Virus record (IMG/VR): IMGVR_UViG_3300048597_000180
Location: 1 to 36,954 of that record
DNA: 36,954 nucleotides
Source: a virus
Reading direction: 5' to 3' (one strand)
In this document: in pieces, positions 14,180 through 34,166 of the stretch
How the letters are laid out: each line of letters starts with the position of its first letter
How positions within the stretch are numbered: position 1 is the first letter of the stretch
The notes under the pieces: model-generated
Seen by the model: the letters and a program-made list of their open reading frames with translations, nothing else
Told to the model about the DNA's origin: nothing
The model's database searches: none
Position numbers and translations under genes: made by a program

Positions 14180-14358
14180 ATCCCCTTCCTTGCAGCAAGA
14201 ATGCTGAGAGTGCACATCGTCGAGCCGACGATGAGATACGGAAGGGGCTGGTAGATCAGGCTGGTCCCGTAACTGATACAGGCCAGTCCTAGTAATCCTG
14301 TCACTTCCAACCGATAAGTCAAGAACCAGTTCTGAGCTATGCTCATTGCCCGTTTCAT
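14176..14358 (-). CDS. Two-TM membrane microprotein between terminase and portal
   Basis: 60 aa. It overlaps both TerL stop (ATGA) and portal start (ATGA), so it is clearly translated in the packaging operon. Two hydrophobic segments are visible: LEVTGLLGLACISYGTSLIY and LPYLIVGSTMCTLSILAA, with a basic N-terminus (MKRAMS) and tail (RKGI). Small membrane proteins in this slot occur in various siphoviruses, with unknown role. Anchoring packaging at the membrane or early holin-like function are possibilities only. Confidence 0.7.
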   Translation of the reverse strand: MKRAMSIAQNWFLTYRLEVTGLLGLACISYGTSLIYQPLPYLIVGSTMCTLSILAARKGI

Positions 14359-16085
14359 GCGAGTAGCTGTCCTTTCTTCTCGTAGACTGATGGACCTTGT
14401 GGCTTTTCTCGTTTATCGAGCCAGGCTCCAATCGACATCGAGCCTGCTGAGATACCATCTATTTTCTCTGCCGACTTCTCCTTATCTGGTTTGATGTTGC
14501 CGGCTGGATCCCTGGCACAAACAAGGTTCTCAGCACACCAGCGGGTAATGGGATGTGAGCCATGGTCAAGCAAGCCTCCTTTCACATACCTCAGCAAGTA
14601 TTCAGTGGGCGTGGTCATCGAAACGAAGCCTTGCCCGAAATCGAGCATTGAACATCCCTGATCAATGAGATGCTGAACAATCTCGCCAGCAAAGGTTCGG
14701 TCATAAGCAGAACGGACGATCTTGTAGAGCCCATGCAGCTTGATGATTTCAGATTCAACAAAATCAAAATCGGTAGTGTTTCCCTCAGTTGCATACAGCC
14801 ACCCCAGTCTCTGCCATACATCGTAGGGCACACCCTTTTTACTTCTGGCGATAATGTCTTCCTCGGGGCACCAGTACCACGCCAACCAGGCCGGCCTAGG
14901 GAACTCTTCAGACGGTGGGAAGAACAGGTTGTAGCAGGTGAGATCCGATACCTTTCCAAGATCGAGGCCTCCGAAACATTCGCGATTGCGGAGCGTTTGG
15001 GACCACGCCTTGTATTCCGCAGCCCGCTGTTCTGGAGTAACAAGCAGGGATGGATTGTTGCGATCCCACTGCACCAGATCAATCGACCGCTTAGCTTTAC
15101 CTGTCATGAAGCAGAAGTTGAGACGCTTGGTTTCTGATTCGTTGTCAGGGATGCCTTCAGCTTCTTGGACGCGCTCCCTCAGGTACTTCTTCGTGATGAT
15201 CGTGCCAAGTGATGGGTTGGCCTTCTCCCAGACATCTTCATCCTTCCAGTCATCTTCTTTGTCGAGACTGCAGACGTAGGCAAACCATTGATCATTGGTG
15301 TAAACCTTGTTCAGGATCTTGATCGAATAGTCCCGATCCTTGCCGCATGGCGTCGTCTCTTTCTGGGGTGTGTTCGTGATCTTCACGATCAGCGGTTGGT
15401 TGCGACCCTTGAACCCAGCACGAAGCATACTAACTACGGTATCGGTCTCGTGCTCATGCCACTCGTCGACCAGGGCGATATGCGGGCGAGGCCCTGACTT
15501 CTTCTTGTCAGCCGAGATCGGTTTGAATGATCCACCATTCTCCGGACAGTAGATGGCGTTCTTGAAGTCCTGGTAGCGGCCTTCGAGGATCTCGCTGTTT
15601 TTGCAGATGTTGAGGGCATCATCAAAACAGATCTTAGCCTGCTCCTTCTTCGTGGCGGCCGCGAAGATCTCCGGCATAGGCTCGTCATCAACGAACAACC
15701 CATAGAGAGCGATACCTCCTATCAAAGGAGACTTGCCATTTCCCTTGCCTGTCTCGATGTAAGCCGTCCTGAACCGCCGGTAACCGTCAGGCCCCAGCCA
15801 GGCCAACAGACTACCAATGACAAACGACTGCCAGGGAAGTAGGACAAATGCTCCACCTTCGGGTAACGACAGCTGCCCCCAGAACTCAAACGCCACCTGG
15901 GCCAAGTCATTGTCGTACCGGATCCCACGCTTCCCGCCTTGCTGCAGATCCTCCAGGTGACGTTCACCCGCCAAGCGAACGTAGGGCCCGGCAACGATGC
16001 CACCGTTCAGGACCTCCTCGGCGTAGTGCCTGACTGGGTCCAGGCTGGCTTTGCGTTTCTTCGTCTTTGGCGGAGTGATGGTCAC
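14355..16085 (-). CDS. Terminase large subunit
   Basis: 576 aa from a GTG that overlaps the stop of a 43-aa microprotein (TAGTG). The ATPase has an N-terminal adenine-binding region (LPWQSFVIGSLLAW), Walker A TGKGNGKS at about residues 112-119, Walker B ALVDE with WHEHETDT at about 204, and motif ITNTPQK. The C-terminal RNase H-like nuclease starts near CFGGLDLGKVSDLT and includes AYDRTFAGEIVQHL. This is the HK97/P27-associated terminase type, which packages DNA into the prohead through the portal encoded next door. Confidence 0.95.
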   Translation of the reverse strand: MTITPPKTKKRKASLDPVRHYAEEVLNGGIVAGPYVRLAGERHLEDLQQGGKRGIRYDNDLAQVAFEFWGQLSLPEGGAFVLLPWQSFVIGSLLAWLGPDGYRRFRTAYIETGKGNGKSPLIGGIALYGLFVDDEPMPEIFAAATKKEQAKICFDDALNICKNSEILEGRYQDFKNAIYCPENGGSFKPISADKKKSGPRPHIALVDEWHEHETDTVVSMLRAGFKGRNQPLIVKITNTPQKETTPCGKDRDYSIKILNKVYTNDQWFAYVCSLDKEDDWKDEDVWEKANPSLGTIITKKYLRERVQEAEGIPDNESETKRLNFCFMTGKAKRSIDLVQWDRNNPSLLVTPEQRAAEYKAWSQTLRNRECFGGLDLGKVSDLTCYNLFFPPSEEFPRPAWLAWYWCPEEDIIARSKKGVPYDVWQRLGWLYATEGNTTDFDFVESEIIKLHGLYKIVRSAYDRTFAGEIVQHLIDQGCSMLDFGQGFVSMTTPTEYLLRYVKGGLLDHGSHPITRWCAENLVCARDPAGNIKPDKEKSAEKIDGISAGSMSIGAWLDKREKPQGPSVYEKKGQLLA

Positions 16086-16219: not shown

Positions 16220-16645
16220 CTACTCCTCCTCTTGTGGGATCTTGAAGTGCATGCGGACCATTCCGCTTCGCCCCACGAATGCAGCCCTGAAACCGCAAGA
16301 CCGCAAGAAGTCATTAAGGCATTGGCCGTCGTCTATAACTGTAGCCAGCAGGGGACGGCGAAATGACGACAGTTTGAGCTTCAACTTTTCGATTATCGCT
16401 GTACCGACCTTCTTTCGCTGCCACTCACCATGCACCTTCAGCCTTACGATGAAGATCTCCTTCTCTCTGAGCAGGTACAGGACAAATCCAACAACCTGGG
16501 CTCCTACCTCGGCAACCATCCCTGCACAGTTGACCTGGCGAAGATTCTCTCTGAAATTGAACTCAGTCCATTCCTGATCGATGGCCAGAACTTCAGGCAA
16601 GTCTCTACTCACGATCCAGCGAATGTGGCACCTCAGCGTTTGCAT
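16220..16645 (-). CDS. GNAT-family N-acetyltransferase
   Basis: 141 aa from the ATG at 16645. A GTG six bases upstream, overlapping the TerS stop, is an alternative start. The GNAT core is visible: DLPEVLAIDQEWTEFNF, then GMVAEVGAQVVGFVLYLL, motif A VKVHG-type LKVHGEWQRKKVGTAIIEKL (the R/Q-x-x-G-x-A acetyl-CoA loop as KKVGTA), then NDFLRSCGFRAAFVGR. It resembles RimI-type protein acetylases. Its site between the two terminase subunits is unusual. Target could be a phage or host protein; the sequence does not tell. Confidence 0.8.
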   Translation of the reverse strand: MQTLRCHIRWIVSRDLPEVLAIDQEWTEFNFRENLRQVNCAGMVAEVGAQVVGFVLYLLREKEIFIVRLKVHGEWQRKKVGTAIIEKLKLKLSSFRRPLLATVIDDGQCLNDFLRSCGFRAAFVGRSGMVRMHFKIPQEEE

Positions 16646-16647
16646 GA

Positions 16648-17157
16648 TCACCGACTCCTCTTCGCTCGATCCCTCAGTTCCCCGAGTGGATCGCGTTTTA
16701 ACTGACTGGGCTCGACCATCTTGGTCACCTTCGCCCTGGATGCCGGCGACATACCGAACTCCGTCAACAAGGACTTCAGCTGCTTCATGGATTCTACCTG
16801 CACCTTGAAGGCTGGATTGATCACAGGCACCTCCCCGACCTTCTTTCCCTTCCGGTCAAGGAGCTTTTTCTTTACCAGGATCCCACCCTTGCGGATGATC
16901 TTCGTAGCTTCGTCGGCCTGGGCTGCCTGTTCACAGAGCATGGCCAGGGCGAGCTGGTCCGCCTCAGTCAGTACCTTGATCCTGAGCAGCATCGGGGAAA
17001 GTTGCTCCCACCAGGTCCGGGCAGGCTTGCTGAGGTATGCCGGTACCGAGGCATCGACAATAACCTCGGGCGTGGGCTCCAACTCGTTGAGCTTGCGCTT
17101 GCCTGGGTTGCCCTGGGCTTTCTTCAGCTCGGTGGGTTTGGGACGGCGGCCGGCCAT
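16648..17157 (-). CDS. Terminase small subunit (P27 family)
   Basis: 169 aa. The N-terminus MAGRRPKPTELKKAQGNPGK is the signature of P27-family small terminases. A central helical section follows (AYLSKPARTWWEQLSPMLL, LTEADQLALAMLCEQAAQ), and the C-terminus contains LLTEFGMSPASRAKV, also characteristic. It recognises the packaging site and loads DNA on TerL. Its ATG overlaps the stop of the sigma-like gene (TAATG). A packaging site is expected close by, but none can be picked out by eye. Confidence 0.93.
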   Translation of the reverse strand: MAGRRPKPTELKKAQGNPGKRKLNELEPTPEVIVDASVPAYLSKPARTWWEQLSPMLLRIKVLTEADQLALAMLCEQAAQADEATKIIRKGGILVKKKLLDRKGKKVGEVPVINPAFKVQVESMKQLKSLLTEFGMSPASRAKVTKMVEPSQLKRDPLGELRDRAKRSR

Positions 17158-17768
17158 TATTCGATGTCTCCCGAACGAATTACTACAGCTTGTTGATGCA
17201 CCGTCACCCCGCTGCGAGCCGGAGCCAGCAGATCGGTCACGAGTGTTGCGGCTCGCATGTCTCCCGCCTTTGCTTTCTTGAGCACTGCTCCCATCACTTC
17301 AGCAACGTCGTCTTCAGAGACGGCACCGAACATAGCTGCGCGCAGTCTAGTGACCTGGTCAGCTACCTGACTGGGAGAAGGGAGATATTGCTCAACTTGT
17401 CGCAAACGTGTTTTTGGCCTGGTAACTAGTTCACGCACCTGGGCTAGTTCGCAGGGGTCAGATGCCTTGGTGTCAACAGGTGGCGGTAGTTCTTTGCCTT
17501 CATGCACAGGCTGCAAGGTCGCTGTGGGATGTCGCCGCCTCGCTGAAATCTCATTTCTCATCCAGTTCTTAATCATGGAGTACGCGAAATTTTTCCAAGG
17601 GATTCCGGCTTGTTGGTCAAACCTTACTGATGCCTCATTCAGGGCCTCGTTGCCGACTGATTCAAGGTCATCGATATTTACACCTGGAGGCATGCGAAAC
17701 TTTCTGGCAGCGATCGCAATCAGTGGCATTGCTTCGTTGACCATAGCTTCTCTTGTCAGAACTGTCAT
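17157..17768 (-). CDS. Sigma-70 region 2-like protein with terminase-adjacent helical domain
   Basis: 203 aa. Residues about 8-75 look like sigma-70 region 2: LIAIAARKFRMPPGVNIDDL, then ESVGNEALNEASVRFDQQAG, then FAYSMIKNWMRNEISARRR, covering core binding and -10 contact helices. No region 4 follows. Instead residues about 140-185 (RLRAAMFGAVSEDDVAEVMG, then AVLKKAKAGDMRAATLVTDL) match the N-terminus of the 149-aa protein at 19224-19673. The gene is coupled to the HTH gene upstream (ATGA) and TerS downstream (TAATG). A late-gene transcription factor is a plausible inference. A non-transcriptional DNA-binding role with TerS is the alternative. Confidence 0.65.
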   Translation of the reverse strand: MTVLTREAMVNEAMPLIAIAARKFRMPPGVNIDDLESVGNEALNEASVRFDQQAGIPWKNFAYSMIKNWMRNEISARRRHPTATLQPVHEGKELPPPVDTKASDPCELAQVRELVTRPKTRLRQVEQYLPSPSQVADQVTRLRAAMFGAVSEDDVAEVMGAVLKKAKAGDMRAATLVTDLLAPARSGVTVHQQAVVIRSGDIE

Positions 17769-18754
17769 ACCGTCGCCCCTTTCGAAAGTAAGTCCATTGC
17801 TTGAGAGGTCAACAGATACAAGGCTCTGGGCCCCCGTTGCTTTGCCCCTTCAAGCTTAGTGCTTGCAACAAAACCCTTCGTGCAAAGGCCAGCCAGGTAG
17901 CTGGTACCTAACGCATTCCATAGCCCAACCGGATCCTTGCCAGTCATCTGGCGTATGTCATCTCTTGTCTTGGGCCCTGAGGCCAGAGCCAGCAGTATCT
18001 CTACAGCTCGAGGTGGCGTATCTCCTGGAAGGCCGTACTTCTCGGCGAACAATCGATATGCCTTGTTCCTTGGGTTCTCGCCAGCTTCAATTTGCTTGAT
18101 CCGGCCTTTCTGACCCATCGCCCTTCGTTCTTCAGGCGACATCTGTATTGCTGGAAGGTGCATGCGACGGCGAATAGCAGTCACCCGCTCTCTGTCACCC
18201 CTACCATTGAATCCAAAGCTACCTTTCAAGAGCTTAGCAATCTTGCTGTCGTTGTGCCCGGCAGCATGCAGCGATCTGATTCTGTCGTAGACTTCCTTAG
18301 GATGCCGTATTGGAACTGACACCTTCAACCGCTCCGCCAGGCGATACACCAACATAATTGAATGAATATCTGTTGTTCCAAGCAGTTCACCTGCAAGTGC
18401 CTTGGCTCCTGCTGTCTTGTATCGTGTCTTCACGGCCTCGATCTCGTCCTTAGTCCATCGTCTGCCATGCGGAACGCCCAGGATCATAGCTCTCCTACGC
18501 ACAGCTGGAGTCCCTCGACCTAATCGCCTTGCAATCACATCAATAGACGTGCCTGATGAATACTCGCTGCGGACAACAGCATCTTCTTCCAGCGTCCAGT
18601 TGCGTGATGGTCTTTTAAGTCCGAGAGTTCGACAACGATTCTTCACAGATGACCTAGACCTGCCCATTCTCTGGACAGCAGCGACCAACCCCAAAGAGGT
18701 GTAAACCTCACTGAGTTGAGCATCCATTTCTTTTGTCCAATGCTTCCGAGCCAT
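17765..18754 (-). CDS. Multi-HTH (SANT/Myb-like repeats) DNA-binding protein
   Basis: 329 aa from the ATG at 18754 (GGAG 5 nt upstream); the longer frame runs into the terminator. Three tandem Trp-anchored HTH repeats are seen: HWTKEMDAQLSEVYTSLGL at residue 5, NWTLEEDAVVRSEYSSGTS near 52, RWTKDEIEAVKTRYKTAGA near 100. A fourth HTH (YDRIRSLHAAGHNDSKIAKL) and a C-terminal winged helix (RAVEILLALASGPKTRDDIR) follow. The domain order matches the split gene at 19687-20607, so the two are paralogues. A position between HNH and the sigma-like gene suggests a transcription regulator of the late operon. Confidence 0.7.
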   Translation of the reverse strand: MARKHWTKEMDAQLSEVYTSLGLVAAVQRMGRSRSSVKNRCRTLGLKRPSRNWTLEEDAVVRSEYSSGTSIDVIARRLGRGTPAVRRRAMILGVPHGRRWTKDEIEAVKTRYKTAGAKALAGELLGTTDIHSIMLVYRLAERLKVSVPIRHPKEVYDRIRSLHAAGHNDSKIAKLLKGSFGFNGRGDRERVTAIRRRMHLPAIQMSPEERRAMGQKGRIKQIEAGENPRNKAYRLFAEKYGLPGDTPPRAVEILLALASGPKTRDDIRQMTGKDPVGLWNALGTSYLAGLCTKGFVASTKLEGAKQRGPRALYLLTSQAMDLLSKGATV

Positions 18755-18773
18755 GCCATCTCCAGTGGTGGGC

Positions 18774-18815
18774 AAAAAAAAGTTGGCATTTCGCGGCCGT
18801 GCACGCGAAACTGCC
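18774..18815 (-). terminator. Rho-independent terminator after the HNH gene
   Basis: On the minus strand GGCA plus TTTCGCG (one bulged base) pairs with CGCGAAATGCC around an 8-nt loop, giving 11 bp, followed by AAC and eight T (18781-18774). It ends transcripts coming from the HNH side just 20 nt before the multi-HTH start. The late regulator therefore probably has its own promoter or depends on antitermination. Confidence 0.7.
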
Positions 18816-18822
18816 CTGCGGT

Positions 18823-19218
18823 CTACGGCTCCCAACCCCCTAGGTCTCTACCCCCCCCCTGGGTACCACCAGCCTCCACCGATTGCTGCGAGGCAGGCAG
18901 CGGCCCGAAGTCCGGGTTTCTGTTCATGATCCCCTTGTCGATGGTCGCAGCCTTAACAGCATTGCAATCACCGCACAGAGGCTGTCTGTTCTCTGGTGCC
19001 AGTGCTTCTCCTCCTCGTGCCATGGCCTTGATGTGGTCAATAGTGTCAGCCGCTACCACCTTGCCCCGTGCCAGGCAGTAGACACACAGCGGGTTCTCTG
19101 CCAGCTCCTGCTCCCGCATCTTGCGATGTTTGCGGTCGTAGCCACGGCGGTGGGATGTCAGCCTGGGCTGTTGCTTGGCCTGACCGAGAGGCTTGTTCCT
19201 TGGTGCCTTCCATGGCAT
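18823..19218 (-). CDS. HNH endonuclease (packaging-associated)
   Basis: 131 aa. The basic N-terminus (QPRLTSHRRGYDRKHRKMRE) precedes the HNH core: CVYC, then DTIDHIKAMARGG with the DHI motif, then ENRQPLCGDCNAVK with the second CxxC and catalytic Asn/His positions. HNH proteins next to P27-type terminases assist cleavage at packaging sites in HK97-like phages. The C-terminal 20 residues are Gly-rich and encoded through a run of nine G (18859-18851), a spot prone to indels, so the last residues are less certain. The upstream gene ends 5 nt away. Confidence 0.85.
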   Translation of the reverse strand: MPWKAPRNKPLGQAKQQPRLTSHRRGYDRKHRKMREQELAENPLCVYCLARGKVVAADTIDHIKAMARGGEALAPENRQPLCGDCNAVKAATIDKGIMNRNPDFGPLPASQQSVEAGGTQGGGRDLGGWEP

Positions 19219-19223
19219 GCTTG

Positions 19224-19673
19224 TTACTCCTTGATGAATGCAGGACGATCAGGCCAGACCACATCCTTCTTGCCCTTAGCTGCTTGTCTGAGTGCTGCAG
19301 CCTGTGCTGTTGCCCATCGTTCGGTTTGTTCCAGATGGTTCTCTCCCAAGACTACCAACGCTTCGATGTTGGGTGGCTTATCCATCACCATGCTGAGCAA
19401 GCGATGCACACGATGGGCTACTGGCTCTAATTGTTCGATCTGCTTCACTGTCTGGTCAACTACCCTATCCTCTGCTTCCTGCCGTAACTGAGTGTGCATG
19501 CTGAACTTCTCGACGTGGACCTTCTGCACCTTACCGCCGAGCAGATAGTCGAGGACTGTCTTGGTTGCCTTCAAGTCTCCTGCCTTTGCCTTCTCTATCT
19601 GAGTGGCCATGATCGAGGCGATGTCCTGTTCCGTTACAGACCCGTACATCGAGAGCCTGAGCCGTTCCGTCAT
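19224..19673 (-). CDS. Helical protein sharing a domain with the sigma-like protein
   Basis: 149 aa. The first 48 residues (MTERLRLSMYGSVTEQDIAS, then IMATQIEKAKAGDLKATKTV, then LDYLLGGK) closely parallel residues 140-185 of the sigma-like protein, with the shared pattern RLR-MxGxVxExDxAxxM and KAKAGDxxAxxxxxDxL. The remainder is helical and rich in Gln, Glu and His (VDQTVKQIEQLEPVAHRVHR). No catalytic motif was seen. It sits just upstream of the HNH gene. The shared domain is probably a small DNA- or protein-binding helical bundle used in packaging or late control (inference). Confidence 0.55.
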   Translation of the reverse strand: MTERLRLSMYGSVTEQDIASIMATQIEKAKAGDLKATKTVLDYLLGGKVQKVHVEKFSMHTQLRQEAEDRVVDQTVKQIEQLEPVAHRVHRLLSMVMDKPPNIEALVVLGENHLEQTERWATAQAAALRQAAKGKKDVVWPDRPAFIKE

Positions 19674-19686
19674 GGCGACGATCTAA

Positions 19687-20607
19687 TCAGGTTGGTTGTT
19701 CATGGGGACTAGAAACTGCTTGCCTTTGTTGGACATGAGAGGTGATCCTTTCCCGCCATTCAGGCGTGAGGTCGTAAATAGAGAGGTTTCCACCTTGCTT
19801 CCCTGTCTGCAGAAAGCGAGGGATTTTAACAACGATGCCGACATCCATGAGTTCGGAGAGGTAGGTAGATCTCTGGTCTCTTTTGCGGTCCTTCACCCAG
19901 TTGCCATTGGCACAGAGCCCGTTCTTCCTGGTACTGGTCCACGTCAGGCCGAGTCGCTCACATATCTGGGGTCGAGTGCTCGGGCCATGTTGAGCCAGGC
20001 ATTATGCAACCTGCACAGCACGGAAGCGGAGCTGCTCAGGTAGTCCGTGATCGTGGGCATATTGTCGATGCTTCCGGTACCGAAGCTCAGCACGGTTCTT
20101 GATGCCGAGCCGCTCGAACTGGGTCTTACATCCCCGCCGTCGTGCCTCCAGTAACCTGTCCTGATGAATAGGGAGCCCCATCAGGGTGCGCAGCTCGTTG
20201 ACGTATCGCCTATCGATGCCCAGCTCAGCTGCAATCTCGGAATCGGTCATCTTCTCGGCGTGCATCGCCTTGACTCGATCCCGGGTATCGGCTGGAACCG
20301 GATCCCACTTGCGTGGCATGCCGAGTTTGCGGGCCTTCTGATAGATCGAGCTGAGTGGCCGCCGAATCATGGCTTTCAGCTCTACCCCTGACTTTGAGTG
20401 GTAGTGCTCCTTCAGCATCGCTGTTTCTTCATCAGTCCAGGAGCGATCCTTGCCGAGTTGGAGTAGCTTAGACCGGGAGTTGATGGCTTTTGCTGTGCGA
20501 GAGAGTATCCTGCCTATCTCACGGTGAGACAGGCCTTGCTCAATTAGCTCTCTCAGTCGCTGTTCTTCGAAGCTGGACCAGCTCATACGCAGGATGATAT
20601 TGCTCAT
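19687..20607 (-). pseudogene. Multi-HTH DNA-binding protein split by an in-frame TAA
   Basis: From the ATG at 20607 (overlapping the RusA stop as ATGA) a 201-aa frame ends at TAA 20004-20002. The same frame then continues without another stop to TGA 19689-19687, for 306 codons in all. The first part has HTH repeats (SWSSFEEQRLRELIEQGLSH, SWTDEETAMLKEHYHSKSG, ADTRDRVKAMHAEKMTDSE). Across the stop, RFRAVQVA-stop-CLAQHGPSTRPQICERLG aligns with PRAVEILLALASGPKTRDDI of the paralogue at 17765-18754. The stop therefore cuts inside the conserved winged helix. It is either a nonsense mutation, a sequencing error, or readthrough. A GTG at 19896 could restart the tail. Confidence 0.7.
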
Positions 20608-23056: not shown

Positions 23057-23908
23057 CTACTGCTTCTCCTTTCCAAGCTCTGCTTCCTCAAACTTGAAGA
23101 CAGCATCAATGATCTTGCCTGCAGCTGCTGGCGTCAGGGCCAGGTAGCTCGCCAGGGCCTTCCTGGTCCAGTCAGCTGGAGCCCCTGTAGGCATGTTGCG
23201 GTTCAGCTCCTCGATCTTGGTCAGTAGCTTGCCGACGGTGGGGAGCTGCAGCTGGCCGAGGAGCTGGGCCTGCATCGGCGTGATGGCATCGAGGTCAGCC
23301 ACCTTCGTCTCCCGCCAGTTTTGCTGAAGTACAGGGTTAGTTTTCTCGATAGGCTTGGTTTCGGGGTCAGCTTTGCCCTTCTTCGTGGACTTGGTTCGGT
23401 TGCCGGTGAAGCTGGCGACGGCACGGAGTACTCGCATCGCCAGGTTGGGCCCCAGCTCCTTGCCGATCTGCTGCTTGGCCTTCGATTGTTGCTCCGGGGT
23501 GAGCTTCTTGTCGGCCTTCATGTGCTTCTCGAGCTGGCCCAGGGTGGATACCTGGATCTTCTCCCGGATCGACTTCACCATCGAGACCGAGAGACCGAGC
23601 ACGACTGGATCCGCTGCGACGTTCGCCAGCGTGGCTTCATGGGTGTCGTCGGGTAGTGGGAAAGCCCAGGGGATGTCGACCGTGTTCTTCTCGTCAAACA
23701 ATGGATGCTCCTCGTTGAGTCCTTTCAGGTAGGTTCTGACTTCATCACGCTTCAGCTCAAACTTGGACTTGGCGTCCTTGTAGAGCTCCTGGGCCTTGTC
23801 CATCTTGGTTTCGAGCTCGTCGACCTCGGATTCCATTTCGAGTACTTCGTCGAGATGCTCCTTGCACTCGATCGGGCTGAGGTCCTGCTTCACTGCGACC
23901 TTTGGCAT
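23057..23908 (-). CDS. Helical early protein of unknown function
   Basis: 283 aa, Lys/Glu-rich. Residues about 10-70 form a coiled coil (EVLEMESEVDELETKMDKAQ, then ELYKDAKSKFELKRDEV). Two short repeats resembling helix-hairpin elements follow: VSTLGQLEKHMKADKKLTPE near 120 and LPTVGKLLTKIEELNRNMPT near 225, both reading as x-TxGxLxxx. That suggests a duplicated DNA-binding helix-hairpin-helix. The start overlaps the end of the replication initiator gene by 19 nt, and 2 nt separate it from the ParB-like gene. No named family was recognised. Confidence 0.6.
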   Translation of the reverse strand: MPKVAVKQDLSPIECKEHLDEVLEMESEVDELETKMDKAQELYKDAKSKFELKRDEVRTYLKGLNEEHPLFDEKNTVDIPWAFPLPDDTHEATLANVAADPVVLGLSVSMVKSIREKIQVSTLGQLEKHMKADKKLTPEQQSKAKQQIGKELGPNLAMRVLRAVASFTGNRTKSTKKGKADPETKPIEKTNPVLQQNWRETKVADLDAITPMQAQLLGQLQLPTVGKLLTKIEELNRNMPTGAPADWTRKALASYLALTPAAAGKIIDAVFKFEEAELGKEKQ

Positions 23909-24996
23909 GGGGCTGATTCCTCAGTGATCGCCAGCGCACGCTCCTGGGAGAGTTGATGTCGCCTGGCTGGGGTAGTGTCGGGGTGTTCGTTCTGGATTTG
24001 TTGCTTGATAGCCTGCTGCTGGTCGTAGGACAGAGCTTCCCAGGCCAGGGCCGCTGCTCGTCGGCGAGATTCGGAGTCGGTCAGCTCTGGACGATCCCGG
24101 GCCTTCACGGCGTGGCGGCGTTTCTGCTCCATCGCGATTTCCTTGCTCGATCTCCAGCAGCCCTGGCTGTCGAGTTCGTAGCCGTAGTTCGCAGGATTGC
24201 GGAGAAAGCCGATCACAAAGCCGCCAGGGTTTCTGACGATACGATTCCGGCAGGTCGCTTTTAGGTTCTGCAGCGCTGCCTGGAGCTTCTGGCGGGTGTG
24301 GCTGGCTAAGTAGTGCTCGGTTTGCTCGAGGCTGATTCCGATAGCTCTACACTCGGCAATGAGCTCTTCACGGTCGGCATCTGCCTCCGCTTGGCTGGAT
24401 CCTTGGCCAGGCAGGGCATGAGGCTGAGCGTCAGCCTGGGCTTCGAGCCCTTCCCTTTCTTTCTCAAGTATTTTGAACTCGGCATCGGCAAAACCTCCTG
24501 ATGGTGATGGAAGGGAAGAAGGAAGGGAAGAAGAAGGATAACAAGCTGGCATGGTGCTAGGTTGCAAGCTAGCACCATGCAAGGTTGGAAGCTGGCAATT
24601 TGCTAGGTTGGAAGCTGGCATGGTGCCAGCATGGCAAATGGCTACTTCCTCGAAGAGTGGCATGTAATCCCACATTGACTCAATGACCTTCATGTTCAGC
24701 ACATAGCGATAAGTTCTGTCACAACCGAATTGCTCAAGCGAACAGAACCGCTTGGCGATTAGGGCCCGTACTGCACGTCGAACAGTATCAACTGACACCA
24801 GGAACCGCTCAGCCAGCGCTTCCTGGGTGTAGTCGATCCACAGCTTCGGACTCTCTTCCGGCTCATGAGGGAATCGCTTACACTTGCCATCACGTAGCAC
24901 CAGGAAGTACTCCAGAATGAGAGCAGCAGTCTTGTTGCCAGTGGCTCGAAGGAACTGTTGCCTGGAACTGTCTCGCATCGTCACATCCCTGATCAT
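23890..24996 (-). CDS. Replication initiator-like protein with iterons inside its gene
   Basis: 368 aa from the ATG at 24996, overlapping the upstream stop (ATGA). An N-terminal winged helix is visible (KTAALILEYFLVLRDGKCKR, then WIDYTQEALAERFLVSVDTV, then RRAVRALIAKRFCSLEQFG), as in phage O-like and plasmid Rep proteins. A low-complexity Ser/Pro linker at about residues 125-165 is encoded by three 23-bp iterons. The C-terminal part is helical with a basic section (RNRIVRNPGGFVIGFLRNPA). It probably binds the iterons and recruits host helicase, since the window has no phage helicase or polymerase. The lambda O arrangement is the nearest model. Confidence 0.65.
   Translation of the reverse strand: MIRDVTMRDSSRQQFLRATGNKTAALILEYFLVLRDGKCKRFPHEPEESPKLWIDYTQEALAERFLVSVDTVRRAVRALIAKRFCSLEQFGCDRTYRYVLNMKVIESMWDYMPLFEEVAICHAGTMPASNLANCQLPTLHGASLQPSTMPACYPSSSLPSSLPSPSGGFADAEFKILEKEREGLEAQADAQPHALPGQGSSQAEADADREELIAECRAIGISLEQTEHYLASHTRQKLQAALQNLKATCRNRIVRNPGGFVIGFLRNPANYGYELDSQGCWRSSKEIAMEQKRRHAVKARDRPELTDSESRRRAAALAWEALSYDQQQAIKQQIQNEHPDTTPARRHQLSQERALAITEESAPCQRSQ
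24509..24538. other. 30-nt all-purine tract beside the iterons
   Basis: On the plus strand positions 24509-24538 contain only A and G, ending 14 bases before the first full iteron. Asymmetric purine tracts of this kind can unwind easily or form triplex DNA. Lambda-type origins have a helix-unstable region next to the iterons. The same bases encode the Ser/Pro linker SSSLPSSLPSP of the initiator. Confidence 0.5.
24552..24620. repeat. Three 23-bp iterons (putative replication origin)
   Basis: Tandem copies at 24552-24574, 24575-24597 and 24598-24620 share the 20-bp core TGCTAGGTTGGAAGCTGGCA, with one to three differences per copy. Partial copies flank them (AAGCTGGCA at 24543-24551, and TGGTGCCAGCATGGCA at 24621-24636). 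Each core is an imperfect palindrome, TGC-WAG ... CTRGCA. The period of 23 is not a multiple of three, so the repeats are kept for the DNA, not the protein. They lie inside the initiator gene, as in lambda ori. Confidence 0.75.
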
Positions 24997-25181
24997 CTGC
25001 GGTTGGGAAGCTCGTACTCGCTGACTTCGATCGGGCTGGCATGAATGCCGAGCCCGTTCTGGATGATGAATTGGTTGGCCAGTATCTCGTTCCTGAACTG
25101 AGGAACCCGGCCGCTGGGATCCCGGTAGAGCCTGCATCGCTCAGGGCCCCCGAAGATCCCGATGAATATCCACTTAATCAT
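24993..25181 (-). CDS. Small early protein between Sak4-like gene and initiator
   Basis: 62 aa, coupled to both neighbours by ATGA overlaps. The N-terminus is hydrophobic (MIKWIFIGIFGG), followed by a basic/aromatic stretch (PERCRLYRDPSGRVPQFRNE) and a polar C-terminus (PIEVSEYELPNRR). It could be a small beta protein; the N-terminal segment is too short for a sure TM helix. No family was recognised. Operon position suggests a link with replication. Confidence 0.55.
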   Translation of the reverse strand: MIKWIFIGIFGGPERCRLYRDPSGRVPQFRNEILANQFIIQNGLGIHASPIEVSEYELPNRR

Positions 25182-26371
25182 GCCTGCTCCAGGAGTAGCG
25201 TCATGGAGTCCACCAGGGTGCCTGGAAGTCCATGCTTGGTTCCGAGCTTCTTCTTGACCTGCTCAGCTCCTTTGACTGGCTCGACCTTTAGGCACTGCTT
25301 CACCCAGGCCTGGAAGATCCCGGGGAAGTGTTCGACCTGGTCAGGCTCAGGAGCGGAGGCGAAGTCAGTCAGGATGTCTCCGAACGTGGAGACTGTGGGC
25401 CCGAGCTTGTCGGTAGCAGTGATGCGGTTGTGCCAGGTCTGTACCCATTCCGGTCCGGCGACGGTTACAGCTTCGGGCTGCTTCGTCTCTTCACGAGCTG
25501 GAGCCGTCTCAGTGGTGGGCTGCTTCGTCTCTTCACGAGCTGGAGCCGTCTCAGTGGTGGGCTGCTTCGTTTCAGTCACTGGCGGTTTCGGTTCAGGCTT
25601 TGGACGCTTCGCCATAATCGCCTTGTAGAAGTTCTGGTAGGCATCCCGGCCTGACTTCCCGCAGCTGATGGCCGTGTTGAGACCAAAACGATTCTTGGCG
25701 AAGTGCCCGGCATCGGCCTGAGTGTAGAGCAGGCGATGCGACTTGTCCTTCACGGCCTGCTGTTGCTTGTCGGTAACCGAACAGACCTCCAGGTTCATGA
25801 AGAAGACGTTGTCAAAGAAGGCGTTGGTTGGCACCCAGAGATGCTTCTGGTTGATCATGGGTGTGTGGGCCTGATAGTCCTCTCCATCGGGATTCCGCAT
25901 CATGGTCACTTCCGAGTGAGCCAGGGCAACCACTCGCATTCCCCTGGCTCTAACGCGGTTGAACATGTGAAGCATGTGGTTCCATGGCTCGGCACACCGC
26001 TCCCATCCCTTGGCGAAGGCATCAAACTTGTCTTCACGGTTCCAGAACTGATCATGCTTGACTTTGCGTTTCACCAGCAACTGGCAGCTGTTCAGTGTGT
26101 CGACAACCAGCGTCTCATGATCGTGCTGGGCATCTGCAAACCATTCCAGATCTTCGAGCAGCTCATCAAAGCTGGACACTGCTTCTTCTTTGTGGGCTGT
26201 ATCAGCTGGAACCCTTCCCTCCCTGATCAGCGTCTTCAAACCGATTTCCAGATCGATCATCAGGAAGACGGGCTTCGGGAAGTGGGCTGCGAACTCGGTC
26301 TTACCTACACCTGGAGGCGAGTAGACCAGGGTGGCTTGGGGATACGACTGGACACGGGTGGCGATCTTCAT
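25178..26371 (-). CDS. Sak4-like ATPase (AAA_24/RecA-like recombination protein)
   Basis: 397 aa. Walker A is SPPGVGKTEFA (about residues 18-28). MIDLEIGLKTL follows, and Walker B is ETLVVDTLNS near residue 90. Sensor-type ARGMRVVALAHSEV comes next. This fits the P-loop proteins known as Sak4 single-strand annealing/recombination factors, or AAA_24. After residue 260 comes a Pro/Thr/Glu-rich linker built from a duplicated 14-residue unit, then a C-terminal helical domain of about 90 residues. A role in recombination-dependent replication near RusA and the initiator is likely. Confidence 0.8.
   Translation of the reverse strand: MKIATRVQSYPQATLVYSPPGVGKTEFAAHFPKPVFLMIDLEIGLKTLIREGRVPADTAHKEEAVSSFDELLEDLEWFADAQHDHETLVVDTLNSCQLLVKRKVKHDQFWNREDKFDAFAKGWERCAEPWNHMLHMFNRVRARGMRVVALAHSEVTMMRNPDGEDYQAHTPMINQKHLWVPTNAFFDNVFFMNLEVCSVTDKQQQAVKDKSHRLLYTQADAGHFAKNRFGLNTAISCGKSGRDAYQNFYKAIMAKRPKPEPKPPVTETKQPTTETAPAREETKQPTTETAPAREETKQPEAVTVAGPEWVQTWHNRITATDKLGPTVSTFGDILTDFASAPEPDQVEHFPGIFQAWVKQCLKVEPVKGAEQVKKKLGTKHGLPGTLVDSMTLLLEQA
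25475..25558 (-). repeat. Two perfect 42-bp tandem repeats inside the ATPase gene
   Basis: The copies at 25475-25516 and 25517-25558 are identical, and 12 bases of a third follow at 25559. Each unit encodes 14 residues (EETKQPTTETAPAR in phase), extending the flexible linker between the ATPase and C-terminal domains. Identity over 42 bp points to a recent duplication, and copy number may vary between isolates. Confidence 0.85.
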
Positions 26372-27044: not shown

Positions 27045-27117
27045 TTCCGGAGGCACGATTCGAACATGCGACCTGTGGGTTATGGGCCCACCGAGCTGAC
27101 CACTGCTCTACTCCGGA
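27045..27117 (-). tRNA. tRNA with CAU anticodon, initiator (fMet)-like
   Basis: 73 nt fold into a full cloverleaf: acceptor TCCGGAG/CTCCGGA (7 bp), D-stem GAGC/GCTC, anticodon stem GTGGG/CCCAC with loop CCCATAA (anticodon CAT), variable AGGTC, T-stem GCATG/CGTGC with loop TTCGAAT, discriminator A. CCA is not encoded. Two initiator hallmarks are present: three G:C pairs next to the anticodon loop, and an A11:T24 pair. Position 33 is C where U is usual, and 1:72 is T:A in place of the bacterial C:A mismatch. It lies inside the early operon. An elongator Met or lysidine-type Ile tRNA is less likely because of the A11:T24 pair. Confidence 0.88.
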
Positions 27118-31325: not shown

Positions 31326-31492
31326 TGCCAAGGTACCAACCTCCCCAACCGACTCCACCCATTAGGCCACCAAGTTATCCCGTTCAGCCTGGGGAGAAGC
31401 GCATGAACCCCCAGCCGCACCGTCCACCTTCTCAGCCGGTGCGGCCTGTGCCGGTACCTTCGCCACCTCCACCACCCCAGCGGAGCAAGTAG
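31325..31492 (+). CDS. 55-aa Pro-rich basic protein, antisense-overlapped
   Basis: The ATG overlaps the previous stop (TAATG). The product is MPRYQPPQPTPPIRPPSYPV, then QPGEKRMNPQPHRPPSQPVR, then PVPVPSPPPPPQRSK, about 40 percent Pro. It lies opposite the last 130 bases of the SLATT-like gene, so only one of the two ends may be truly coding, or both overlap tail-to-tail. The coupling to the upstream Pro-rich frame favours translation. Confidence 0.4.
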   Translation: MPRYQPPQPTPPIRPPSYPVQPGEKRMNPQPHRPPSQPVRPVPVPSPPPPPQRSK

Positions 31493-31982
31493 TTGCAGGC
31501 AATCTTGAGGCCGTTTCCTCATTTAAGCATTGCTCCAAGAAAGGGCGATCAACTGATCTCTCCATCGAGTGGAGGGCATTCGATTTCGTTTGCAACTCAG
31601 TAAGTCGATCGATAACGTTTCCGTTCACTGTATCATCTTCACTCTTCATGCAAACCTTCAACTCTTCAGCATCGACATCGCTACGAAGATCACTCCAAAG
31701 TCGATACATTTCACTGTGTTCTTTATCCCAATCGCCAACTGGTATGATGTTCATTGCAAATGCCGCAACAGAAGAGATAACTGCCAACCAAAGTGCAGTC
31801 CAAGGATAATCGAAACCCGGGACGGACATTACCAGACTGACAACCGTCATAATGACAACCACAATTTTAATACAGCGATCCCATGCTCTCCAAAATGTTG
31901 CATAGGCTTGATGATACCTATGATTCATTCCGCAAATAACTGAGAGAGAGTAGTTGCGATTTCTGTATTCTCTGACCTGCAT
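31362..31982 (-). CDS. SLATT-like two-TM membrane protein
   Basis: 206 aa from the ATG at 31982 (GGAG eight bases upstream). N-terminal QVREYRNRNYSLSVICGMNH and HQAYATFWRAWDRCIKIVVV lead into two TM helices (VVIMTVVSLVMSV and TALWLAVISSVAAFAMNII) joined by a short loop, then a helical part (DKEHSEMYRLWSDLRSDVDA). This layout resembles SLATT-type 2TM effectors, which are known from nucleotide-sensing defence systems as membrane-damaging parts. No cyclase or sensor gene is next to it. It may be an exclusion gene. The Ala/Pro-rich C-terminus overlaps a plus-strand frame. Confidence 0.55.
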   Translation of the reverse strand: MQVREYRNRNYSLSVICGMNHRYHQAYATFWRAWDRCIKIVVVIMTVVSLVMSVPGFDYPWTALWLAVISSVAAFAMNIIPVGDWDKEHSEMYRLWSDLRSDVDAEELKVCMKSEDDTVNGNVIDRLTELQTKSNALHSMERSVDRPFLEQCLNEETASRLPATTCSAGVVEVAKVPAQAAPAEKVDGAAGGSCASPQAERDNLVA

Positions 31983-32038
31983 TTCGATCACTCCAAAAGA
32001 CCGATGATCAGTCGGCGGTCACTGACATTATAGCAGGA

Positions 32039-32257
32039 CTACCCTTCCTGCACTTTCACCGCATTGTCAAACGAGTTACTCCCCTCGTCGTACCTGGGCT
32101 GAGGCCCTGTCTTCTTACCATAGCATCCGATCATCGGTGTCAGCCTGGCGATCACCGACTTCAGGCACTTCTTGCAGTACCTGTGATCATTTGTGACAGC
32201 AGGCTTCTTGATGCAGCTGCAGCAGATCCCGTCGGTTCGTGGTGTCGGAAGATTCAT
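32039..32257 (-). CDS. Small zinc-ribbon protein
   Basis: 72 aa. The N-terminal half is a four-Cys ribbon: RTDGICCSCIKKPAVTNDHR, then YCKKCLKSVIARLTPMIG. The rest is polar and basic (YGKKTGPQPRYDEGSNSFDN). It follows the wHTH gene by 16 bases and belongs to the promoter at 32930-32902. Such proteins often bind nucleic acid or RNA polymerase, but the sequence shows no more than metal binding. Confidence 0.6.
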   Translation of the reverse strand: MNLPTPRTDGICCSCIKKPAVTNDHRYCKKCLKSVIARLTPMIGCYGKKTGPQPRYDEGSNSFDNAVKVQEG

Positions 32258-32273
32258 AGTCGAGTTCCTTGTC

Positions 32274-32813
32274 TTAGAAGCATGTGAACTTAGAGAGCCC
32301 GGACCGTCCGAGCAGCCTGTTCATGAAACCAACCACCCAGCGAACCACCAGGATCACTCGATCAGCTGGTGGCTGCAGCCAGTACTTTCCGGATCCGTCA
32401 GTCTGGATCATGGTTCCATAGGCGGGATCATCCTTGAGGATGTCGCTGATCTTCTGCGTCTCGCCACAACCGACGGCCGCGAGATGCCTGGCACCGACGA
32501 CAGGGGTCCCTGCTTCCCAGTGCTGCCAGAGTACTTTGACTATGCGGGCCCGGAGAGGAGTGAAGAAGTACTGCACGCCAAACCAGCTCACCGAGATGAA
32601 ATCGTCAGAGTGCCTGGCAGGGGACAGCCTGGCGATGACTACCTCAAGGTGAGGTCTGAGCTTGGGGTAGTGGGAGTCGCAGAGCCTGGCGACGTAGAGC
32701 GCTGCATAGTAGCCGAGGAACTTGGAGATAGCTGTGGTGGGTTCCTGCTGGCGGCGTGGGCTGAACAATTCAGGACGTTCACGGACGAGAGTAACTTTCT
32801 TGGACTTCTTCAT
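32274..32813 (-). CDS. Winged-helix protein of a planctomycete mobile-element type
   Basis: 179 aa from the ATG at 32813, with GGGGGA upstream; the longer frame would include the promoter. The basic start (MKKSKKVTLVRERPELFSPR) precedes a helical domain, then a winged helix: LRARIVKVLWQHWEAGTPVV, then GARHLAAVGCGETQKISDIL, then DPAYGTMIQTDGSGKYWLQP. I know the pattern LWxAWExGTPxx ... PAxGTxI ... GxYxL from planctomycete mobile elements, where its role is not clear. DNA binding is likely. It is the first gene after its own promoter. Confidence 0.6.
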   Translation of the reverse strand: MKKSKKVTLVRERPELFSPRRQQEPTTAISKFLGYYAALYVARLCDSHYPKLRPHLEVVIARLSPARHSDDFISVSWFGVQYFFTPLRARIVKVLWQHWEAGTPVVGARHLAAVGCGETQKISDILKDDPAYGTMIQTDGSGKYWLQPPADRVILVVRWVVGFMNRLLGRSGLSKFTCF

Positions 32814-32901
32814 TGGAGATCCCCCTGCATGGTTCGCCCTCAGATCCTTGGATCGCGAACCGGGAAAAGGTTGGGGGTACACATCTTGTGCACGTGTCAC
32901 T

Positions 32902-32930
32902 GGTATAAACGACAGTCCAGAGGTCATCAA
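32902..32930 (-). promoter_or_regulatory. Leftward promoter for wHTH and zinc-ribbon genes
   Basis: TTGATG (32930-32925), a 17-base spacer and TATACC (32907-32902) make a fair sigma-70 promoter, 89 bases before the wHTH start. The leader holds a GTGCAC/GTGTCAC patch that could be an operator. From 32941 to 33029 I see no gene. Confidence 0.45.
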
Positions 32931-33029
32931 GTGAACACTATGTAGTTTTTACAAGGTCCTGGAATCTGGAAGATGTACAGTTGCCAACAGCAGGTGTCAT
33001 AGACTAGAAGCAGTTCCACTCATGAGGCG

Positions 33030-33236
33030 ATGATGTCACAGTTATCAGGAATTCCTCGCTCAGACTTACCACCTCTGCCAGAGGGTTGGGACAGATTCCT
33101 TCCATTCAGTGGGGGTGAAGATTGGGAAGGTAATCCGATCCTTCGAGACAAAAACAACAATTACATCCCTCTCGATGAGCAAGATTACATATTCCTGGCT
33201 GCACTGATCAACGCTTGCTACAAGTCCTCTCCATGA
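33030..33236 (+). CDS. Small plus-strand protein of unknown function
   Basis: 68 aa with GAGG just before ATGATG. The sequence is MMSQLSGIPRSDLPPLPEGW, then DRFLPFSGGEDWEGNPILRD, then KNNNYIPLDEQDYIFLAALI. The residues look real (Pro/Trp/Tyr/Asp spread, no bias) and the gene ends 72 bases before the DUF1580-like start on the same strand. No family was recognised. It may form a small operon with that gene. Confidence 0.5.
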   Translation: MMSQLSGIPRSDLPPLPEGWDRFLPFSGGEDWEGNPILRDKNNNYIPLDEQDYIFLAALINACYKSSP

Positions 33237-33307
33237 TTCGACCGTAGATCGACCAGGGTTCCTGCTTGAGCCTGCATACTGACCTCGTCACCAACGCCGA
33301 GGTCACC

Positions 33308-33604
33308 ATGCCGAATCTCATCCCGCTCACCACTGTCCCTGCCCTAATCGAATCTTGGTACGGCTGGCGTCCTCACTCGATGACCGTCTTCCGCTGGACC
33401 CAGGGCGTACGTGGTGGCCAGCACAAGCTCAAGACGATCAAGCGTGGATCTCGACGGCTGACCTCCCGCAGCGAACTCCGTCGCTTCATGCGGGCCTGGT
33501 CAGGGGACGAGCGAGATCTCGCCACTCCCCGACAGTCGAAGTCAGTGGATGAACGCGAGTTGGAGCGAGCAACAGCCAGGCTCAAGAAGATGGGTATGCT
33601 CTAA
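33308..33604 (+). CDS. DUF1580-like protein, possible excisionase
   Basis: 98 aa from the ATG at 33308 (GAGG upstream); the 14 codons before it are probably not used. The sequence MPNLIPLTTVPALIESWYGW, then RPHSMTVFRWTQGVRGGQHK, then LKTIKRGSRRLTSRSELRRF resembles the planctomycete-specific DUF1580 pattern, with a MerR/Xis-like winged helix in which TVFRWTQGVRGG is the HTH and LTSRSELRRF the wing. Such small proteins near an integrase are good excisionase candidates. It lies opposite in direction to the integrase, with the HicBA block between. Confidence 0.65.
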   Translation: MPNLIPLTTVPALIESWYGWRPHSMTVFRWTQGVRGGQHKLKTIKRGSRRLTSRSELRRFMRAWSGDERDLATPRQSKSVDERELERATARLKKMGML

Positions 33605-33631
33605 GCGATGATGTCTTCTATAGGTGAGATA

Positions 33632-33862
33632 TTAACCTACTAGCTTGTTGAACTCTTCGATAGACAGTCCAGCAGCATCAATCTGTGACTTTAGCAAGCC
33701 GGTTCCTAAGGTATCATTGTTGTGAACAGGGATGCTCAAATGATAACGACAGCCAGTTTTTTTAAGGATGAAATGACTGCCAGTAGTACGGACGTGAACG
33801 AAACCGGCGTGCTCAAAGGCACGCACGGCTTCTTTACCTGATACTCTTATGAGCTTAGGCAT
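33632..33862 (-). CDS. hicA: HicA-family toxin
   Basis: 76 aa. The HicA double-stranded RNA-binding-like fold is visible: LIRVSGKEAVRAFEHAGFVH, then VRTTGSHFILKKTG (the catalytic His in GSH), then YHLSIPVHNNDTLGTGLLKS, then QIDAAGLSIEEFNKL. It should act as an mRNA interferase. Its start overlaps hicB by 8 bases, so the antitoxin is made first, the reverse of the classic hicA-hicB order but common. Together they may stabilise the prophage. Confidence 0.9.
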   Translation of the reverse strand: MPKLIRVSGKEAVRAFEHAGFVHVRTTGSHFILKKTGCRYHLSIPVHNNDTLGTGLLKSQIDAAGLSIEEFNKLVG

Positions 33863-34166
33863 TCACATATACCCAGACGTAATGAGATCCTTCAATGGAC
33901 TCGTTGTTTTCGGTCCAGGGTATCTCTTCCCCACTATCTGAATATGACTCAATCGCACCTTTTGCTGCTTCTTTTGCGTTGGTGATGGCTTCCTTTTTAG
34001 TCTTACCCTGGCTTCCAACACCCGGTAAATTCACAGCAACTGCAGTGAAGACATCATCCTCCTGCGTAACACGTAATTGAATTCGATAGTCCTCACGCGT
34101 TTCCCATGCATCGAGAACTTCGACATTACCGTCACTTTCGCAAATGGTAATGGGTTCAGCTATCAT
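33855..34166 (-). CDS. hicB: HicB-family antitoxin
   Basis: 103 aa from the ATG at 34166 (GGAG nine bases upstream), overlapping the end of the DUF6941-like gene by 11 bases. The HicB partial RNase H fold reads YRIQLRVTQEDDVFTAVAVN, then LPGVGSQGKTKKEAITNAKE, then AAKGAIESYSDSGEEIPW, the usual LPGCxxxGxTxEEA pattern. No C-terminal HTH is visible in the last 20 residues, so operator binding may rest with a partner or the upstream gene product. Confidence 0.87.
   Translation of the reverse strand: MIAEPITICESDGNVEVLDAWETREDYRIQLRVTQEDDVFTAVAVNLPGVGSQGKTKKEAITNAKEAAKGAIESYSDSGEEIPWTENNESIEGSHYVWVYVNA

Follow-up and report, generated by a model that had tools for sequence, protein, structure and literature searches.

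Does the phage gene at positions 17157-17768 encode a sigma factor reduced to its region 2, and with which partner would such a protein act? The question was raised by a 36,954-nucleotide stretch of IMG/VR record IMGVR_UViG_3300048597_000180 (the window). The source virus is a temperate phage, and the gene lies right before the DNA-packaging genes. From sequence alone, the initial annotation had proposed a split sigma system driving late genes, with region 2 in the 203-aa product of this gene and DNA specificity supplied by a neighboring multi-HTH protein. All window features given with coordinates below lie on the minus strand.

Identification of the region 2 domain

Profile searches placed a sigma-70 region 2 domain at residues 5-79 (17532-17756). 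The Pfam family Sigma70_r2 (PF04542) matched residues 11-79 with an E value of 9.6e-5 and 22.5 bits, slightly missing its curated cut-off of 24. Matches in NCBIfam were FliA/WhiG (TIGR02479; 3.4e-7) and TIGR02937 (1.5e-6), and PHROG 351, 'RNA polymerase sigma factor', matched at 3.4e-6. A control HMM, built independently from eight viral-contig sigma factors, was run on the 522 six-frame ORFs of the window; ORF 17157-17768 was its sole match and scored 20.4 bits, and the highest score among 1000 shuffles was 5.0.

Neither sigma region 3 nor region 4 was reported for this ORF by Pfam, NCBIfam or the PHROGs, and the absence of region 4 noted in the initial annotation thus stands. A linker modeled with low confidence (residues 80-130; 17379-17531) sits where regions 3 and 4 would begin, and together with a helical hairpin it occupies the place of region 4. 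The linker holds the motif DPCELAQ, which phmmer aligned with DPCELLQ of RpoS at an insignificant score. The protein terminates in AVVIRSGDIE.

In the AF2 model, residues 1-80 adopted the sigma2 fold (pLDDT 91-98), the domain consisting of three helices (residues 6-22, 32-49, and 58-79). This confident model took sigma factors as alignment rows; when these rows were left out, confidence was low (mean pLDDT 48), and prediction with no alignment at all gave a poor structure. A VIA fold search with the region 2 model was led by 8b3z_C (Z 12.2, rmsd 1.7, 74 residues aligned) and also returned 1sig (Z 11.3, rmsd 1.5, 72 aligned). The best 50 matches listed were all sigma chains; the nearest solved folds among those listed were sigma2 of SigE, sigma70 and sigmaS, and no gp55 structure was among them.

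Several sigma70 residues were retained: D403, G408, N409 and L412 correspond to D34, G39, N40 and L43, and the aromatic at Y430 is kept as F61. Others were changed. The core-binding residues Q406 and E407 are replaced by Ser and Val, M413 by Asn, R423 by Ala, and W433/W434 by Ser and Met. Among the positions that bind the beta' clamp, D403 and N409 are kept, and Q406, E407 and M413 are changed. WhiG-like factors also show Ser at position 406 and Tyr, Phe or Ala at 407. Profile and predicted fold both bear out the region 2 likeness noted in the first reading of the sequence: residues 5-79 of ORF 17157-17768 are a true sigma-70 region 2.

The C-terminal hairpin and DUF5681

Residues 141-184 (17217-17348) form a helical hairpin named for its KAKAGD motif. 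The same hairpin recurs, as originally observed, in a second protein of 149 aa without a sigma domain (19224-19673): residues 141-181 of the sigma-like protein and residues 4-44 of the second protein were 49% identical over 41 aa (pairwise E 3e-12), and similarity between the two was confined to this stretch. A weak match of the C-terminal half of the sigma-like protein to YqeY (0.19) was set aside because DUF5681 (PF18932) explains this half better.

Against DUF5681, the hairpin of the sigma-like protein scored 14.6 bits over positions 48-75, short of the curated cut-off of 27.5. Three separate KAKAGD proteins nevertheless matched one stretch of this family (positions 46-75 of 77), each weakly on its own: the sigma-like protein (0.05), the second KAKAGD protein (0.097), and a protein of another phage, L091 (0.038). 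The hairpin also aligned with DUF5681-type proteins of genome contigs L088-L090, with L090 scoring 6e-13. These alignments identify the KAKAGD hairpin with the C-terminal half of DUF5681 (a domain of unknown function) rather than with the terminase-area domain that the initial annotation took it for. The N-terminal half of DUF5681, with its SGNPAGRPxG motif, is replaced by sigma region 2 in 17157-17768 and by nothing in 19224-19673.

On reading of the ORFs, no terminase gene was recognized beside the DUF5681 genes of L088-L090. In L091, a winged-helix-like gene overlaps the KAKAGD gene, which lies between TerL and portal. No solved relative of the KAKAGD hairpin or DUF5681 was found by sequence. 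A DUF5681 protein has been found among the virion proteins of one Salmonella phage (PMC8954984).

Gene neighborhood and the HTH proteins

The sigma-like gene is directly upstream of the gene for the small terminase subunit (TerS; 16648-17157), a P27/Terminase_4 protein (Pfam 2.8e-19; PHROG 83 1.7e-38), and the large subunit (TerL; PHROG 9, 6e-132) is encoded at 14355-16085. Upstream lies hth2 (17765-18754), encoding a D5-like protein with multiple HTHs and a winged-helix-like end. Its start is most likely ATG 18754 (RBS GGAG) rather than TTG 18835, so that the product is probably 329 aa long. The stop of hth2 overlaps the start of the sigma-like gene as ATGA, and the stop of the latter overlaps the terS start as TAATG, bearing out the coupling on both sides that had been described earlier. 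The GC3 of hth2 and the sigma-like gene (0.51 and 0.49) was the lowest of the phage core genes (other genes below 30 kb: mean 0.67, sd 0.06).

An HNH endonuclease gene (18823-19218; Pfam HNH 2.7e-8, PHROG 2323 2.5e-19) stands between the two KAKAGD proteins. Between it and hth2, directly upstream of the hth2-sigma pair, an intrinsic terminator was predicted at 18774-18815. Its hairpin stretch spans 34 nt (-17.7 kcal/mol, z -3.2) and runs into 8 T; no other T-run terminator hairpin found on this strand was as strong. No Rfam family matched in the window, and a search with a defense-system library yielded nothing convincing.

Farther upstream, a paralogue of hth2, designated hth1 (20002-20607), encodes a second D5-like multi-HTH protein. 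Both HTH proteins matched PHROG 323 (1e-18 and 2e-16). The reading frame of hth1 ends at a TAA and continues in frame at 19687-20001 with a segment that is homologous to the winged-helix end of hth2 and adjoins the second KAKAGD gene. The upstream hth1-KAKAGD pair is a paralogue of the hth2-sigma pair, broken by the TAA. Stop recoding was rejected as an explanation of the interruption because TAA ends 20 of the 47 listed ORFs.

No sigma region 4 was matched by Pfam in hth2. A match to region 4 in hth1 stayed below the cut-off (6.9e-4), and other HTH families fitted that HTH as well or better. The GcrA profile covered the first HTH of hth1 at profile positions 1-67 of 155 (5.1e-4, weak) and hth2 at positions 2-73 (0.12); its C-terminal part was unmatched by both HTH proteins.

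Searches for relatives and late promoters

When viral contigs were scanned with the sigma-like, HTH and second KAKAGD proteins one at a time, no direct relative came up, and plasmids yielded none either. Using tblastn against phages, sigma-factor ORFs were recovered on three short gut scaffolds (the two that were read are of host type) together with one chance match. Among 50 records with a related TerL, which are not close relatives, region 2 had no match. A search of 398 genomes of one phylum gave no relative at 1e-7, a result that shows little as it had no positive control. The genome-contig search yielded the three DUF5681-type proteins of L088-L090, none of them a sigma fusion, and no second genome with the sigma2-KAKAGD fusion was found in the databases searched.

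The initial annotation had suggested looking for a common motif upstream of the late genes. None was found: pairwise 16-mers in the larger late-gene gaps were no better than shuffles. Promoter-like sites of the sigma-70 type were below expectation and not above chance.

Proposed function and alternatives

The sigma-like protein probably redirects the host RNA polymerase, since it combines half a sigma factor with a helical module and is co-encoded with a DNA-binding partner. The favored reading, given a probability of roughly one half, is that of a sigma2-only RNA-polymerase factor that acts at late promoters jointly with the HTH protein. It would use region 2 to dock on the beta' clamp helices and to assist in melting a -10-like element, while the D5-like HTH/winged-helix protein would bind DNA upstream and keep the sigma2 protein, directly or via the hairpin, on the promoters of late packaging and structural genes. 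We infer the polymerase contact, the complex with the HTH protein and the use or activation of late promoters from several observations: the region 2 profiles with their controls, the sigma2 fold and retained residues; the HTH-sigma-TerS gene overlaps and the shared atypical GC3 of the pair; and the paralogous HTH-KAKAGD block upstream, along with the winged-helix-like/KAKAGD overlap in L091. By analogy, T4 gp55/gp33, GcrA and the RinA-type position offer precedents. Against it stand the changes at Q406, E407, R423 and W433/W434, the absence of a shared late-gap motif and of promoter-like sites above chance, the lack of a region 4 match in the HTH protein and of a second genome with the fusion, and the low AF2 confidence once sigma alignment rows were left out.

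The split-sigma idea of the initial annotation is consistent with these findings and gained from the atypical GC3 of the pair and from its paralogous counterpart, but the HTH protein has no recognizable region 4 and no late motif emerged. In its full form, the sigma2-DUF5681 and D5-like multi-HTH proteins would replace a whole sigma factor, with specificity coming from non-sigma HTHs and the hairpin as the joining piece; this we regard as a tentative possibility.

A host-takeover decoy is unlikely. Here the sole purpose of region 2 binding to the beta' clamp helices, for which it could compete without a region 4, would be to keep host sigma factors off by displacing or blocking them, and the HTH protein would be an independent regulator. 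Several altered -10-reading positions and the missing late-promoter motif would suit such a role, whereas the aromatic retained at Y430 does not, and the gene position, the overlaps with the HTH gene and terS, and the shared atypical composition are more in keeping with a regulator of the late phase than with an inhibitor that acts early.

Also unlikely is an activator-type protein acting on the host-sigma holoenzyme, or an antiterminator-like one that would allow polymerase to read through the 18774-18815 terminator and on to the late genes; the sigma2 fold would then serve only as an RNAP-docking module. The strong terminator directly before hth2-sigma-terS, the otherwise continuous gene order and the unrecognized late promoter agree with this. 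However, the gene for such a factor lies beyond the terminator that it would have to overcome, so leaky read-through would be needed first, and no antiterminator family was matched in Pfam, NCBIfam or the PHROGs.

A role in packaging or DNA metabolism is improbable. The KAKAGD/DUF5681 module would then be the functional part, in terminase-area DNA metabolism, and sigma2 a repurposed or decaying helical bundle. The L091 gene between TerL and portal, the second KAKAGD protein without a sigma domain, and the one virion example of DUF5681, a domain of unknown function, all point this way; yet region 2 is clear, confidently predicted and family-typical in its residues, and the L088-L090 genes have no recognized terminase neighbor. 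Very improbable is an acquired, moron-like regulator of host genes or a non-functional insertion, as low GC3 and absence of region 2 from TerL relatives might suggest, against which the frames overlapping TerS, the intact ORFs and the paralogous block argue for integration in the phage program.

If the favored reading is true, phages have another route to dividing sigma, with core binding apart from promoter recognition, and DUF5681 and the D5-like regulators gain a testable role in late transcription. So compact a system, two proteins and the host core, would bear on how little sigma suffices to start transcription.

Comparison with known systems

Relative to DUF5681 proteins, the hairpin aligns with the C-terminal half, but the SGNPAGRPxG half is absent from both KAKAGD proteins of the phage. 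Both HTH proteins match the D5-like regulators of PHROG 323, a family whose function is annotation only, but they are longer and have a winged-helix-like end. Late regulators such as RinA are encoded upstream of terS (PMC13123087), and the sigma-like gene likewise precedes terS. RinA/Ltr proteins, however, are about 130 aa long and belong to other families, and the sigma-like protein had no RinA/Ltr PHROG or sequence match.

The initial annotation called the split sigma system a new idea, but it is not new in kind, because region 2-only factors with separate partners, T4 gp55/gp33 and Bacillus subtilis SigO-RsoA, are already known. T4 gp55 is a sigmaR2 protein without sigmaR4, and gp33 sits on the beta flap (PMC7892883). 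Both phages thus encode a small sigmaR2 protein lacking sigmaR4, and in T4 the upstream contact comes from a separate protein. Unlike gp55, to which no sequence match was detected and whose family was not among the matches, the protein described here ends in a DUF5681-like module. Where T4 has the small, flap-binding gp33, the partner proposed here is a large multi-HTH protein, and no link to a sliding clamp was seen. SigO-RsoA is a two-protein sigma factor (PMC10141391) and shares the division of sigma functions over two proteins, here a proposal. Both of its chains carry sigma domains, whereas the HTH protein has no recognizable one and region 2 is fused to a non-sigma helical module. GcrA, a sigma70 cofactor of Caulobacter, has a DNA-reading domain of its own and takes hold of sigma at region 2 (PMC6917491). 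It differs in partnering the host primary sigma factor and in the C-terminal part of its profile, unmatched here; what the two systems may share is a DNA-reading protein docked on sigma region 2, a likeness echoed in the weak match of the first hth1 HTH to the GcrA profile.

Genome Organization and Terminase Area

The 36,954-base virus record is a temperate phage genome in which the integrase, ParB-like, Sak4-like, RusA, terminase, portal, protease, capsid, and tape-measure genes were all carried on the minus strand. In transcription order, the terminase area (all minus strand) contained genes for a D5-like multi-HTH protein (20002–20607), a protein with the KAKAGD helical hairpin (19224–19673), an HNH protein (18823–19218), a second D5-like HTH protein (17765–18754), the sigma-like protein (17157–17768), TerS (16648–17157), a GNAT acetyltransferase (16220–16651), and TerL (14355–16085). 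A 134-nt non-coding gap separated the GNAT gene from terL. The tight coupling of the HTH, sigma, and terS genes was borne out by an ATGA overlap (HTH/sigma) and a TAATG overlap (sigma/terS).

Elsewhere, a tRNA-Met (CAT) gene was located in the early region (27045–27117, minus strand). An ORF with a weak O-like replication match (23890–25137) contained four tandem 23-nt repeats (24542–24633), and the Sak4-like gene contained a perfect 42-nt tandem duplication (25475–25558). Near the integrase end (31362–34641), several ORFs had a low third-position GC (0.45–0.47), unlike most other phage regions.

Sigma Region 2

The sigma-like protein contains a real sigma-70 region 2, as the initial annotation claimed. 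Pfam Sigma70_r2 matched residues 11–79 (9.6e-5, slightly below the curated cut-off), and matches were also found to the FliA/WhiG model (3.4e-7), the general sigma-70 model (1.5e-6), and PHROG 351 (3.4e-6). A control profile built solely from eight sigma factors of viral contigs matched one of 522 six-frame window ORFs, namely the sigma-like ORF, at 20.4 bits; the best score among 1000 shuffles of the protein was 5.0.

AlphaFold placed three helices in residues 1–80 (pLDDT 91–98). By VIA-align, this domain resembled sigma2 of SigE (8b3z; Z 12.2, rmsd 1.7, 74 residues) and sigma70 (1sig; Z 11.3, rmsd 1.5, 72 residues), and the best 50 rows were sigma chains. Because the AlphaFold alignment included the eight viral-contig sigma factor rows, the fold supports the region 2 identity but does not count as independent evidence for it. 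A single-sequence model gave helices at the same positions with low confidence.

Residue equivalences to Escherichia coli sigma70, in its established numbering, were taken from the sequence alignments and placed by eye. D34, G39, N40, L43, and F50 correspond to sigma70 D403, G408, N409, L412, and F419, and F61 to the -10 melting aromatic Y430. Q406, E407, R423, W433, and W434 are replaced by S37, V38, A54, S64, and M65. Core binding is plausible, since WhiG-type factors in the same alignment have S at 406 and Y/F/A at 407; -10 reading is probably changed.

KAKAGD Hairpin

The place of sigma regions 3 and 4 was occupied by a low-confidence linker (residues 80–130) and then a helical hairpin (141–184; block mean pLDDT 76–84 over 151–180). 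The hairpin was indeed shared with the 19224–19673 protein (49% over 41 residues, E 3e-12). Searching with the sigma-like protein brought up three genome loci that matched its hairpin part and whose proteins had the form SGNPAGRPxG...AKAGDMRAA. One of these proteins (L090) was DUF5681 by profile score (6e-13), and the sigma-like protein, the KAKAGD protein, and a KAKAGD protein from a phage contig (L091) each matched DUF5681 profile positions 46–75 at 0.04–0.1. On these grounds the KAKAGD hairpin most likely represents the C-terminal half of DUF5681, serving here as a module on different N-termini.

A second sigma2-DUF5681 fusion was not found among viral contigs, phages, genome contigs, plasmids, TerL-related records, and 398 genomes of one phylum; scans with one sequence as query reach close relatives only.

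Candidate HTH Partner and Duplicated Block

The HTH protein (17765–18754) matched PHROG 323 (D5-like, 1.1e-18) and, by reading, had a winged-helix-like stretch at its end. Its paralogue (277 aligned columns, E 1e-16) is encoded at 19687–20607 on the minus strand, where a single in-frame TAA (20002–20004) shortens the ORF to 20002–20607; the 104 open codons beyond are homologous to the end of the HTH protein. The interruption may reflect a disrupted gene, an error in sequencing, or the presence of two distinct polypeptides. It is followed by the KAKAGD protein, which has no sigma domain. Therefore, the terminase area includes two blocks, each pairing a multi-HTH and winged-helix protein with a KAKAGD protein; the second block has sigma region 2 in addition.

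In L091 (4233–5010), a winged-helix-like gene overlapped the KAKAGD gene between TerL and portal (both named by reading), and the KAKAGD protein had a second winged-helix-like stretch at its own end. This parallel is suggestive only, because BLAST similarity between the winged-helix parts was not significant (0.47).

Composition and Terminator-like Hairpin

The adjacent sigma and HTH genes had the two lowest third-position GC values below 30 kb (0.493 and 0.508; other genes mean 0.665, sd 0.057). Shortly 5′ of the HTH start codon, in the interval that separates the HNH gene from the HTH-sigma-terS unit, a 34-nt hairpin stretch (-17.7 kcal/mol) was followed by eight T (18774–18815, minus strand). 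One of 200 shuffles folded equally well; folded together with its flanks, its excess stability was not significant (z -0.9). The minus strand had four T-runs of at least six, and only this one had a strong hairpin; the hairpin has a bulged stem and was missed by a consensus scan. Given this low GC and the terminator-like hairpin just before the HTH start, the pair looks like an acquired unit that sits downstream of a terminator, where the early and late regions meet.

Proposed Function and Known Systems

The likeliest role of the sigma-like protein, at roughly an even chance (0.5), is that of a late-gene specificity factor reduced to sigma2; the HTH protein would read DNA as its partner. The common motif anticipated upstream of late genes was not found in the gaps. 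Rival explanations are that the protein acts as a decoy for host sigma, has an antitermination-like role at the 18774–18815 terminator, or serves in packaging.

Split sigma function is already known; the open-access literature searched contained no description of it combined with a DUF5681 module and a D5-like protein. For the specificity factor reading, T4 gp55 shows that initiation can be directed by a sigmaR2 protein lacking sigmaR4, the beta flap being covered by gp33 (PMC7892883), and GcrA makes its own sequence-specific DNA contact and acts through sigma region 2 (PMC6917491). RinA-type late regulators occupy the same position before terS as the sigma-like gene (PMC13123087).
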